DNA from: a virus
Reading direction: 5' to 3' (one strand)
DNA: 21,222 nucleotides
Virus record (IMG/VR): IMGVR_UViG_3300028735_000040
Location: 1 to 21,222 of that record
The notes beneath the pieces were generated by a model. The model saw nothing but the letters and a program-made list of their open reading frames with translations, was not told the origin of the DNA and searched no databases. A program made the position numbers and the translations under genes. Positions 1,051-13,109 of this stretch are shown piece by piece (the first letter of the stretch is position 1; each line of letters begins with the position of its first letter).

Positions 1051-1123
1051 GCCACCTTGCGCCCCATGCGCCCGGCTGGCATCCGAAACATAGTGGGCTG
1101 CGCGGGGGGCGGCCAATGCTATT
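1051..1123 (-). promoter_or_regulatory. Control module copy 1 (promoter plus leader dyad)
   Basis: On the minus strand, -35-like TTGGCC (1116-1111) is separated by 18 bp from -10-like TATGTT (1092-1087). The start codon at 1027 lies about 60 bases on. Upstream is GCATTGG with an A-run, a possible UP-like segment. Downstream is GATGCCAGCC and a degenerate form of the GCGCA-TGG-TGCGC dyad (here GCGCATGGGGCGC), then GCAGCAA. The same ordered blocks occur upstream of 1549 and 1751. Promoter assignment rests on the spacing and on conservation in three places; no start site is known. Confidence 0.65.
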
Positions 1124-1159
1124 TTTGCAACCCTGACCCGCGCGGCCCGCATGGCTTCC

Positions 1160-1549
1160 CTAGGCGTGAACCTTGCCATCGTCGCCGACGTAGAGATCGA
1201 AAGCGCCGAAAGCGTGGGCGGCATCCGTCAGCCGCTCGCCAACATCTCCCGCGCCGCGATCCCAGAAACCCGTGCCGTGGTAGTTGCGCGTCAGCCAAAA
1301 GTCATGCCCGATGATTTCCATCGTGGCGTCAGCCTCCGCCATCATCTCGACAATGTCGGCCGCGTTCTCGCGCAGGAAGCGAACACAATCCTCCCACATG
1401 GCGCGTTGCGTCTCCGAGTGAATGTCATGCTCCCCAAAGTTTTCGTCCATTGGGTTCCCTTCGTCATCCGTGGATGACCAAAGGGCGCAAGCGACATAAC
1501 CCTGAAAAAAGTCGAGCATGTCGGCATTGCTGAAAGGCGTGTCCCGCAT
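1160..1549 (-). CDS. Conserved phage protein with GHDFWLTRN...GFWDRG motif
   Basis: A 129-aa protein. Residues 81-99 hold the motif GHDFWLTRN-(x)n-GFWDRG, and the N-terminal half has a YVACALWSS segment and an invariant-looking DC pair. This combination is common in small phage proteins of unknown function. ATG at 1549 is chosen because an upstream GGGAGTTAGGA ribosome site and a promoter lie just before it. A longer in-frame reading back to 1669 would begin inside the promoter region and looks non-coding. Transcription comes from control module copy 2, divergent from the plus-strand pair at 1751. No enzymatic role is suggested. Confidence 0.85.
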   Translation of the reverse strand: MRDTPFSNADMLDFFQGYVACALWSSTDDEGNPMDENFGEHDIHSETQRAMWEDCVRFLRENAADIVEMMAEADATMEIIGHDFWLTRNYHGTGFWDRGAGDVGERLTDAAHAFGAFDLYVGDDGKVHA

Positions 1550-1567
1550 CGTCCTAACTCCCGTGTT

Positions 1568-1640
1568 GCTGCCCGGCGCACCATGCGCCGCGCTGGCAAG
1601 CCCGAACATAGGGGGCCGCGCGGCGGGGACCAATGCTTTT
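1568..1640 (-). promoter_or_regulatory. Control module copy 2 (promoter plus leader dyad)
   Basis: Minus strand: TTGGTC (1633-1628), 17-bp spacer, TATGTT (1610-1605), then TTGCCAGC and a perfect stem CGGCGCA-TGG-TGCGCCG, then GCAGCAA before the ATG at 1549. The element is back to back with copy 3: the two -35-like boxes lie about 35 bases apart and point outward. Both -35 boxes are preceded by GCA, giving GCATTGG in each copy. The 201 bases between 1549 and 1751 are thus a bidirectional control region with no gene. Confidence 0.7.
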
Positions 1641-1650
1641 TGTGCATGGC

Positions 1651-1740
1651 AGGGTTGCGATCTTGGCATTGGTGCGGCCCGCCAAGATCGCTATCTTCCC
1701 GGTTGCCAGCCCGGCGCATGGTGCGCGGGGCGCAGCAAGG
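1651..1740 (+). promoter_or_regulatory. Control module copy 3, with an 11-bp operator-like inverted repeat
   Basis: Plus strand: TTGGTG (1669-1674), 17-bp spacer, TATCTT (1692-1697), then TTGCCAGCC, the dyad GCGCA-TGG-TGCGC (about 1715-1727), GCAGCAA and the ribosome site AAGGGAGA before the ATG at 1751. Unique to this copy is a perfect inverted repeat GCGATCTTGGC (1657-1667) / GCCAAGATCGC (1681-1691). It encloses the -35-like box and abuts the -10-like box, as expected for a repressor operator. Confidence 0.7.
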
Positions 1741-2507: not shown

Positions 2508-2777
2508 ATGCGAAGGAATGCGCATAGACCTTTGATTTCAAAAAATCGAAGATATTCCGCACCCGTTCCGATGCTTTCGGGCGGCCGTGACCCCATGGGC
2601 CGTGACGCCATGGGCCGTGACGCCAAGGCCCGTGACCCCATGGGCCAGCCCGCCGCCCCGGCCGCCGCGAGTCCGGCGGCGGCGAATCGCGCGGCGGCCG
2701 ACGGCGCGGCGGCGGGCCGGGCGGCGGCGGGCCGGGCGGCGGCGAATCGCGCGGCGCGGCCGACGGCGCGGCCCTAG
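2508..2777 (+). CDS. Possible low-complexity Ala/Arg-rich small protein
   Basis: An 89-aa reading frame. ATG at 2508 has a good ribosome site (AGGGAGA at 2494-2500). Residues 1-25 look ordinary and basic; then come four pentapeptides of type GRDxM (DNA period 15 bp, 2583-2646), then an Ala/Arg-rich tail built from repeated GCGGCGGGCCGG-type DNA. The C-terminus resembles the Ala/Pro/Arg tails of histone H1-like bacterial DNA-binding proteins by composition only. The stop TAG lies in the palindrome CTAG (2774-2777), which also provides the stop of the convergent 81-aa gene. It could equally be non-coding repeat DNA. Codon support is weak because of the repeats. Confidence 0.35.
   Translation: MRRNAHRPLISKNRRYSAPVPMLSGGRDPMGRDAMGRDAKARDPMGQPAAPAAASPAAANRAAADGAAAGRAAAGRAAANRAARPTARP
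2583..2646. repeat. 15-bp tandem repeat, four copies
   Basis: Units of the form GTGACSCCAWGGSCC recur with GTGAC at 2587, 2602, 2617 and 2632, an exact 15-bp period. Immediately to the right (about 2647-2773), GCGGCGGGCCGG-type repeats and GCGGCGAATCGCGCGGC copies extend the low-complexity block. Because the period is a multiple of three, the repeat is in frame with the possible ORF at 2508. Confidence 0.8.
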
Positions 2778-3019
2778 GCTTCGGCGGCAACCCAGTAGAG
2801 CCCGCGCTTGTCCTCGCCCGCCGGGCTTTCGCCGACAACCCAAGCCACCTTGTTCCGGCGCATGACTTCTTCGGCCGCCGCCCGGCAGTTTCTCTCGAAC
2901 CCCCAGGCATGATCATAGGTGATCGTGGCGGGCTTGTAGCCCGGCGCGAGAACCTCCGCGCGAATGCGCGAAGGCCGCGTCTCGGTGATGTCGAGAAACC
3001 GGGTCAGGACGATACGCAT
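2774..3019 (-). CDS. Small protein with RIRAEVL motif, paralogue of the 95-aa plus-strand gene
   Basis: An 81-aa protein, last gene of the long minus-strand operon. It shares RIRAEVL, KPATITYDHA, the Arg/Ala-rich helix and a GEDKRGLYW ending with the 95-aa protein at 2095-2382. The two clearly belong to one family of unknown function, though they lie on opposite strands with separate transcription. ATG at 3019 lies four bases after the stop of the 31-aa gene, with no strong ribosome site, so translation is probably coupled. Its TAG stop is part of the CTAG shared with the possible convergent ORF. Confidence 0.8.
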   Translation of the reverse strand: MRIVLTRFLDITETRPSRIRAEVLAPGYKPATITYDHAWGFERNCRAAAEEVMRRNKVAWVVGESPAGEDKRGLYWVAAEA

Positions 3020-3343: not shown

Positions 3344-3637
3344 TCACTCCCCCCACCAAAGATCGGGCCGCGCGAACGGGACCTTCTCGCCCCGCTGCTT
3401 GGCAATCTGTTCCAGTTTCGTTGCGTAGAGCAACAGGATATCCAACGGGCAGATGTTGTTCTTGCTCATGCAACACGCGCTGTAGTGCGAATGGCTCAGC
3501 CCGATCATGGGGCCAAGCCGGTCCTGCCGGATTCCCAGGTGGCGGCGCAGCGGCTCAACGTATTCGTCCGTCAGCCGTCGGCGGCGCGCGAACACGGCCG
3601 CCTGATTGAAGTCCGGGGATGCCGTCTTGATCCTCAT
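3344..3637 (-). CDS. Small HTH-like regulator candidate
   Basis: A 97-aa protein. Residues 28-60 (VEPLRRHLGIRQDRLGPMIG, then LSHSHYSACCMSKN) have the spacing of a Cro/CI-type helix-turn-helix: a first helix, the turn around GPMIGLS, and a Ser/His-rich second helix. Residues 61-80 form another likely helix. ATG at 3637 overlaps the stop of the dNMP kinase-like gene by 4 bp (ATGA), which rules out the longer reading to 3853. It is a possible DNA-binding regulator; target unknown. Two adjacent cysteines at 55-56 are unusual. Confidence 0.7.
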   Translation of the reverse strand: MRIKTASPDFNQAAVFARRRRLTDEYVEPLRRHLGIRQDRLGPMIGLSHSHYSACCMSKNNICPLDILLLYATKLEQIAKQRGEKVPFARPDLWWGE

Positions 3638-11466: not shown

Positions 11467-12597
11467 TCAGTCTGCGGCGAGATAGAGGTGCGAGGGCTTG
11501 CGCTGCGCCAGTTTCCCGACGGCCTCCTTCACTCCCGCCGCGTCGCCAAACCTATCGAGCACTTGCGTCGGCGTCAAGAGGGAAAGCGACGTAAAATCGC
11601 TCTCCGGGATGAAGGCGGAAAGCGCGGAGATAACCTCCGCATCGCTCGCCGTCCAAGCGAGCGCCCCGGCGCGGCTCTTGGTCCGCAGCCCCGGCACTTC
11701 CACCCCGGACTGAACCATGCGGAGGCCGACGCGCTCGGCCGCCGCGATCCAATCCGAGACGCGCTTCTTGAGGCGCACCGCCCGCGCGATCATCTCGGCG
11801 TCGGCTTGCTCAGGGGTCACAGTTTCACTCATGTTCGCGATCTCCTCGAACTCGGCGCGGCGGGCCGGGCAGGCCAGAAGCGCCGGGCAGTATTGGCAAT
11901 GATCCCCAGTCACCGGCGGGTCTTTCTCGGCCCGTTCCAGCCGCCGGACAACCTCCCGCAGAAACGCGGTGACGAAGGCCGCGTCCTCTTTCACCTCATC
12001 CCACCCGTCGGGCGACGCCTCGGGGTGGCGCGGCTGGCAGATCGCAAGCCGCACGGTGTGGATCGGGTAGTTGTGCAAGCGATTGCGGAGCAACCCGGCG
12101 GCGTAAAGCAGCAACTGCTGATTGCTCTCGGCCGACACCAGATAGCCCGCGCCGTGTTTGTAATCCACGACGTGAAGCACGGTGCCGTCATCCGTGAGCG
12201 CCCAGAAGTCAACGGTCCCCCAGATGCCAGGTTCTTCCGAGATGACCACTCGGGTTTCGACCCCCCAGGCCAGCGCCCGCCCCGCCAAGTCGCGCAGCCG
12301 TTCCGCCGCCTTGCAGATGGCGCTGCGGCTGTCATCATTGGCGATCAGGTCGAACCCTTCGGCCGCGTCCTCCCGCTGCGCGCGGGCAGCGGCGAAGGCC
12401 GCGTCATAGTCGGCCTCCGGCCGCCGGAGCATCTCTTCCAGAACCGCCATGGCGGCGGTCCCGGAGAGCGCGTAGGGCGACGCGCTTTCGTTTTCGATCC
12501 CCCGTTGCCGCGCGGCTTCCGTCAGGCGGATGGAAGCCGGGCAGGAAAGCCACCGCTTCGCGGCGCTCGGGCTATAGACTGCATGCGCCTTGGTCAT
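11467..12597 (-). CDS. DUF2800 PD-(D/E)XK nuclease with Fe-S-type cysteines
   Basis: A 376-aa protein of the DUF2800/RecB-like nuclease group. The active-site core is GTVDFWAL (127-134), then VVDYKHGAG (143-151) and QQLLLYA (160-166), giving the D-x(n)-D-x-K pattern. Four cysteines (C19, C234, C237, C243) match the split cluster of AddB/Cas4-type enzymes that hold a [4Fe-4S] centre. It probably resects DNA ends for recombination-dependent replication together with DUF2815. Start ATG 12597 overlaps the polyproline gene stop by 4 bp (ATGA). Confidence 0.9.
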   Translation of the reverse strand: MTKAHAVYSPSAAKRWLSCPASIRLTEAARQRGIENESASPYALSGTAAMAVLEEMLRRPEADYDAAFAAARAQREDAAEGFDLIANDDSRSAICKAAERLRDLAGRALAWGVETRVVISEEPGIWGTVDFWALTDDGTVLHVVDYKHGAGYLVSAESNQQLLLYAAGLLRNRLHNYPIHTVRLAICQPRHPEASPDGWDEVKEDAAFVTAFLREVVRRLERAEKDPPVTGDHCQYCPALLACPARRAEFEEIANMSETVTPEQADAEMIARAVRLKKRVSDWIAAAERVGLRMVQSGVEVPGLRTKSRAGALAWTASDAEVISALSAFIPESDFTSLSLLTPTQVLDRFGDAAGVKEAVGKLAQRKPSHLYLAAD

Positions 12598-13109
12598 GCC
12601 ACCTCAACCCCCATCACCTGCGCAAGTTCAGGAAGCAGAGCCTCCGGCGCGCTTTGCAGCCCGCGCGCGCCCCTGTCATGCAAGAACTCTTGCATGATCG
12701 GGATCAGGTGCGGATTGGCGACAAGAGCCGCCTTGAGCCGGACCCGCAGATCGGCCGCCGGGATGGTGGCCGGGGCCGGGGCCGCCGGGGCCGCCGGGGC
12801 CGCCGGGGCCGCCGGGGCCGCCGGGGCCGCCGGGGGCGGCGGGGGCGGCGGGGGCGGCGGGGGCGGCGGGGGCGGCGGGGGCGGCGGGGGTGCCGCCGGG
12901 GCCGGGCGGCTGGAAGCCCCATGCCCAAGCAGGACCTCCTTTGCCAGCCGCCGCACAAGCATCGCCTGCGCGTCGGCGATGGCTTCCTCCGGGGTCTGCC
13001 CCGCCGGAACGGGACCGGCCACCTCGGCCGTCCCTTCAACGTGCTGGTAGTCTCCGAGATTGTAGCGCCGCGTAACACTGGCGCGGAACGTCACGATGGG
13101 TTCGCTCAT
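12594..13109 (-). CDS. Protein with 20 consecutive prolines linking two small domains
   Basis: A 171-aa protein. Residues 6-60 (VTFRASVTRRYNLGDYQHVE and a helical tail) resemble small phage proteins with an RYNLGxYxHVE core. Residues 74-93 are 20 prolines without interruption, followed by six AAP triplets and APATIP. The C-terminal 50 residues are helical (LRVRLKAALVANPHLIPIMQ and more). The strong ribosome site AAGGAGG precedes ATG 13109. Such a proline run would normally stall ribosomes without EF-P and should form a stiff polyproline II rod. Genes for DUF2800 and SNF2-type helicase flank it; function unknown. Confidence 0.85.
   Translation of the reverse strand: MSEPIVTFRASVTRRYNLGDYQHVEGTAEVAGPVPAGQTPEEAIADAQAMLVRRLAKEVLLGHGASSRPAPAAPPPPPPPPPPPPPPPPPPPPAAPAAPAAPAAPAAPAAPAPATIPAADLRVRLKAALVANPHLIPIMQEFLHDRGARGLQSAPEALLPELAQVMGVEVA
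12778..12898. repeat. 9-bp G-rich tandem repeat with G-quadruplex potential
   Basis: The plus strand carries GGGGCCGCC repeated from about 12778 to 12831, then GGGGGCGGC repeated so that seven G5 runs start every 9 bases at 12832, 12841, 12850, 12859, 12868, 12877 and 12886. Loops of 4 bases between five-G runs fit the standard quadruplex pattern. On the minus strand this encodes the polyproline and AAP stretch of the gene at 12594-13109. Replication slippage would be expected to vary its length. Confidence 0.9.

Follow-up and report, generated by a model that had tools for sequence, protein, structure and literature searches.

A proposed portable promoter with a leader hairpin in front of unrelated accessory genes in a group of related phages

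The variable regions of phage genomes contain numerous small accessory genes with no known function, and to our knowledge it is largely unknown how newly gained genes acquire their control. The PeSL of T4-type phages are mobile regulatory cassettes (Arbiol 2010; Comeau 2014, cited in PMC4503421) and, going by the title and citation under which they are described there, promoter-terminator composites. The SAS of cluster K mycobacteriophages is described as a 13-bp sequence, GGGATAGGAGCCC, near the start codon, and the ESAS as a pair of 17-bp inverted repeats (PMC3203893). At the level of RNA, the operator of gene 43 in T4 and RB69 is a hairpin with a UAAC-type loop, placed in the leader some 40 nt ahead of the AUG (PMC3014915).

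The locus compared with these systems lies in a virus record of 21,222 bases, which was analysed over its whole length and is referred to as the window. It encodes a PolA-type DNA polymerase, an SNF2-type helicase and a prim-pol, as well as a DUF2800 protein with a nuclease domain and a large protein that distantly matches internal virion proteins of podoviruses. This gene set indicates a tailed phage that has a single long operon on the minus strand, at the end of which the modules described here sit in a variable cassette of small genes. Elsewhere in the window, positions 1-490 are non-coding and GC-rich and contain tandem repeats of 28 bp as well as recurring GAATCGCAGTTGCGAATCGTTCGCAATCGC units, and 12594-13109 encodes a protein with a long run of proline and alanine, for which a 9-bp tandem repeat in 14 copies codes.

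The original prediction held that one ordered module, with a spacer of 17-18 bp, stands in three copies before genes that are unrelated to one another, and all of this is borne out. The compound pattern GCATTGG-N14..22-CTATSTT-N4..9-TGCCAGC matches the window exactly three times, at 1075-1119 (minus strand), 1592-1636 (minus) and 1666-1710 (plus), against 0.00 matches expected by chance and none in 100 dinucleotide shuffles of the window, and the three regions can be aligned in full, starting at the GGGTTGC-type block and ending at the ATG. The -35-like boxes were placed by reading and the -10-like boxes by reading and pattern search. Module A has TTGGCC (1111-1116, minus) and TATGTT (1087-1092, minus) at a spacing of 18 bp, preceded by an upstream half-site, CAGGGTTGCA (1126-1135, minus), 33 nt before the -10. 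In modules B and C the spacer is 17 bp, with TTGGTC (1628-1633, minus) and TATGTT (1605-1610, minus) in B and TTGGTG (1669-1674, plus) and TATCTT (1692-1697, plus) in C. These two promoters are divergent and have in common a degenerate palindrome, TGCATGGCAGGGTTGCG (1643-1659), with 4 mismatches to TGCATGGCWGCCATGCA. The promoter-like arrangement, TTGGNN-N17/18-TATSTT, was recognised by reading and falls below the cut-off of a standard sigma-70 scan. Each promoter is followed by a leader hairpin, GCCGGGCGC-AUGGG-GCGCAAGGU in A (1054-1076, minus; 30.7 bits with a covariance model), GCGCGGCGC-AUGGU-GCGCCGGGC in B (1571-1593, minus; 32.4 bits) and GCCCGGCGC-AUGGU-GCGCGGGGC in C (1709-1731, plus; 33.7 bits).

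No similarity is detectable among the genes behind the three modules. Gene A (178 aa, 491-1027, minus) is related to two adjacent small genes of a relative, L007, with 63% and 46% identity, and the first of these also lies behind a module. At L007:11438-11977 the two genes that correspond to gene A stand in swapped order, the one for its C-terminal part coming first, so that gene A is either a fusion or the product of a split with permutation. Gene B (129 aa, 1160-1549, minus) belongs to phrog_1915, a family with matches in 438 phage records that extend from Mycobacterium to Escherichia phages. Gene C (107 aa, 1751-2074, plus) has a relative in 3300043543_000112 that is 73% identical and likewise lies behind a module. 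It is followed by gene D (95 aa, 2095-2382, plus), the second gene behind module C, which is phrog_3199-like and a paralogue of gene E (2774-3019). In 3300043543_000028 (L005, near 12751-12876) a relative of gene E contains an in-frame stop and therefore appears inactivated. Genes A and C found no match among isolated phages, and a comparison of nine cassette proteins with defence-system models gave no match. Between genes D and E, at 2583-2646, lies a 15-bp tandem repeat, GGCCGTGACSCCATG, in 4.3 copies, the core of which, TGACSCCANGG, is present three to four times near the cassette or near gene E relatives in all four related phages; the array is iteron-like and may be a binding array or an origin.

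When IMG/VR was queried with several protein families, the close relatives that emerged were the same three contigs: 3300043543_000112 (G001), 3300043543_000028 (G002) and 3300031812_000030 (G003, the L007 above). Most of their replication proteins are 76-96% identical to those of the window, with a few small ones lower. G001 contains two further modules and G003 four, all at the same variable cassette position, and G002, whose contig stops inside the cassette region, has none on the contig. This gives a total of nine modules in three of the four related phages, all of them uncultivated, in front of seven unrelated gene families. The original prediction had made its case depend in part on conservation in related phages wherever the genes are retained, and the module is indeed kept across phages together with gene C (window and G001) and gene A (window and G003). 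What is conserved between phages is the TGC half-site or palindrome, the TTG-like -35, TATNT, the spacing and the hairpin. Of the blocks first listed, the TATNT box stands, whereas TGCCAGC, GCATTGG and GCAGCAA are common to the three window copies only and are not kept between phages.

The element appears to be confined to this phage group, as judged from scans whose exact patterns miss diverged stems. Two pattern scans of IMG/VR gave known copies or chance matches only. The matches outside the group, L020 and L021, lack the stem and the cassette context and were set aside as chance; the 24-bit model match in L020 lies in an inverted repeat with flanking A/T runs, which reads as a terminator. 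Across 257 Gb of GTDB genomes there was a single match, L030, which has neither the outer stem nor the context and was likewise rejected, and a search of the GTDB genomes with replication protein A7 found no relatives. Rfam gave no match up to E = 1 in the window, L004 and L007.

As a portable control unit before unrelated genes, the module works like PeSL and SAS/ESAS. It shares with PeSL, the promoters of which are early, repeated units of promoter and stem-loop beside accessory genes in a variable region (PMC4503421). Unlike PeSL as described by title and citation, it carries its stem-loop in the leader, downstream of the promoter and with no T-run, and has a conserved pentaloop and a covarying stem. 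Like SAS/ESAS (PMC3203893), it combines a short element and an inverted repeat before many unrelated small genes, and the element is kept when the gene is kept; unlike them as described there, it has promoter boxes at a fixed spacing. By reading, GGGATAGGAGCCC is absent from the nine leaders, and the ESAS repeats are likewise not present. Since the module has no terminator and no SAS sequence, it is not a member of PeSL or of SAS/ESAS.

The upstream palindrome, which the original prediction did not include, is the first of the two conserved features on which a shared factor could act. In eight of the nine modules the TGC half-site precedes the -10 by 32-33 nt; in the ninth the distance is 44 nt, one helical turn more. 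Some modules have the full palindrome TGCATGGCWGCCATGCA, about 40 nt ahead of the -10. In G001 a perfect copy, TGCATGGCTGCCATGCA, lies between divergent promoters, and in G003 the palindrome occurs at two places with one or two mismatches, while the window copy is degenerate at 4 mismatches. Palindromes with at most 2 mismatches occur at cassette promoters only (3, against 0.1 expected). The palindrome resembles a 17-bp operator. Beside the cassette in all four phages, and in two copies in G003, is a gene for a small protein (3344-3637, minus, in the window) with a predicted lambda-repressor/XRE-like fold. The prediction has a pLDDT of 79, and its top structural matches, at Z 4-7, are for the most part lambda-repressor-like (XRE, controller proteins, POU); these matches are weak, with a Foldseek E no better than 0.84. 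Pfam HTH_3 was matched at 0.053 in one member of the family, and the protein has no match among isolated phages. It is a candidate operator-binding regulator and the most economical one for the palindrome.

The second feature is the hairpin, a 23-nt element with a 9-position stem that tolerates a central mismatch and a pentaloop that fits RUKGK. The original prediction had seen a dyad here, and one is present in all three window copies; it is longer than proposed, at 23 nt, and behaves as RNA. Across the nine copies, 91.4% of stem cells are paired against 77.6% in shuffles, with double (compensatory) changes at six of nine pairs and 13 further pair types in the stem, none of which was reached in any of 500 shuffles, although these pairing counts are inflated because detection of the G003 hairpins relied in part on a filter for pairing. 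The control for this pairing-based recognition in G003 is the count of hairpins with an upstream TATNT in shuffled sets, and here the nine copies compare with a mean of 0.18 and a maximum of 2 in 60 sets. Slid stem registers are all far worse than the chosen one, RNAalifold recovers the same hairpin on its own, and each of the nine complete leaders includes the hairpin when folded to minimum energy. Taken singly, the leaders have modest folding z-scores (-0.2 to -3.0), as expected for GC-rich DNA. With the covariance model the nine copies score 28.8-35 bits, and the next match in the four phages reaches 18 bits and is one of these hairpins read on the opposite strand.

The hairpin was also read for other functions. 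It was rejected as a terminator because it has no T-run; none of the nine modules has a T run after the hairpin, and a terminator scan omits the window hairpins. An upstream ORF starting from the AUG, GUG or AUU of the loop was rejected because frames and stops are inconsistent. The lambda-type boxB of nut sites is a short, 15-nt leader stem with a GNRA-like pentaloop and a boxA beside it, and the binding hairpin of CsrA/RsmA carries GGA in its loop. The module resembles boxB in having a short leader stem and a pentaloop, and no GNRA-like loop and no GGA occur among its nine loops. By reading, no boxA (CGCTCTTTA-like) stands beside the hairpin in the nine leaders. As in the gene 43 operator, the loop of which is read by a phage protein, a leader hairpin has a conserved loop (PMC3014915). 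Unlike that operator, which serves one autoregulated gene through a UAAC-type loop, the module stands before many unrelated genes with an RUKGK loop; all nine loops fit RUKGK and none is of the UAAC type.

The loops are AUGGG, AUGGU, GUGGU and AUUGG. U2 and G4 never vary, and positions 1 and 3 are each the same in eight of nine copies, while the outer stem varies. A conserved loop on a stem that is not conserved suggests recognition by a trans-acting factor. It is possible that the hairpin is instead a passive 5'-terminal stabiliser that guards the transcript against decay with no specific factor. Its stems are stable, at -11 to -17 kcal/mol, and it lies close to the predicted transcription start and at a distance from the ribosome site; its gap to the -10 is 10-11 nt in eight of nine modules and 15 nt in G3_a (for G3_b and G3_d measured from TATCTA/TATCTT, 4-5 nt upstream of the nearer TAT). 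Such a stabiliser would have no need of a conserved loop, and we consider it unlikely, though it is the alternative that survives best. The start codon follows 18-27 nt after the hairpin, the G3_a figure assuming the second ATG, and the distance between hairpin and ribosome site argues against simple masking of that site.

Alternatively, the dyad may be a DNA operator, bound by a dimeric repressor and placed shortly after the start site, a position typical for repressor sites, and in some copies, such as window B, the dyad is perfect or nearly so. The centre of the element is asymmetric and conserved, and scores fall steeply on the opposite strand, from 33.7, 35 and 32.4 bits to 18, 16.5 and 14.3. 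The stems also change in sequence yet keep their pairing. Eight stem cells are G-U, and the hairpins G3_a and G3_b of G003 lean on several of them; since G-U pairs do not form dyads in DNA, RNA is favoured, and a DNA operator seems improbable. The modules could also be recent recombination copies of one promoter region, alike by common descent only and with no role for the hairpin. Whole modules are indeed slightly more alike within genomes than between them (0.658 against 0.629, permutation p 0.037), but the hairpins are not (p 0.98), and the compensatory changes in the stems make this account very improbable. The place of the hairpin upstream of small, probably early genes would suit a single-stranded DNA promoter used by a virion RNA polymerase in the style of phage N4. 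This is hardly credible given a loop of five, not three, the conserved TATNT and spacing upstream, and the large ORFs of the (incomplete) 28-kb relative, none of which encodes a giant polymerase like that of N4.

We therefore favour, with a probability of roughly 60%, the reading that the module is a transferable unit of expression: its mRNAs would all start with one shared hairpin, which a trans-acting factor probably reads. The parts of the module and their spacing, the way they recur before genes that are unrelated, and the covariation of the stem are direct observations, and one control unit in front of unrelated accessory genes suggests a shared signal at the RNA level. In the proposed mechanism, each module would by itself provide for the expression of a single accessory gene or a short operon. 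Transcription would start from a sigma-70-type promoter (a TTG-like -35, 17-18 bp and TATNT) with an operator-like half-site or palindrome upstream. The first structured element of the mRNA would be the 23-nt hairpin, probably a few nt from the 5' end, followed by the ribosome site and the start codon. The hairpin would act as RNA, and a trans-acting factor bound to it may set the stability or translation of all module mRNAs together. The upstream palindrome may add a shared transcriptional input, with the XRE-like protein (3344-3637) as candidate. More tentatively, it is possible that the reader of this portable 5' hairpin on unrelated accessory-gene mRNAs is an RNA-binding factor encoded by the phage, either a protein or a small RNA.

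The hairpin is a compact and testable RNA element (23 nt, with a covarying stem and a fixed loop) that is not in Rfam. To the question of how newly gained phage genes come under control, a portable promoter, operator-like site and structured leader before seven gene families offers a concrete answer for this group. If such a phage-encoded reader of the hairpin exists, any captured gene placed behind the module would join a post-transcriptional regulon.
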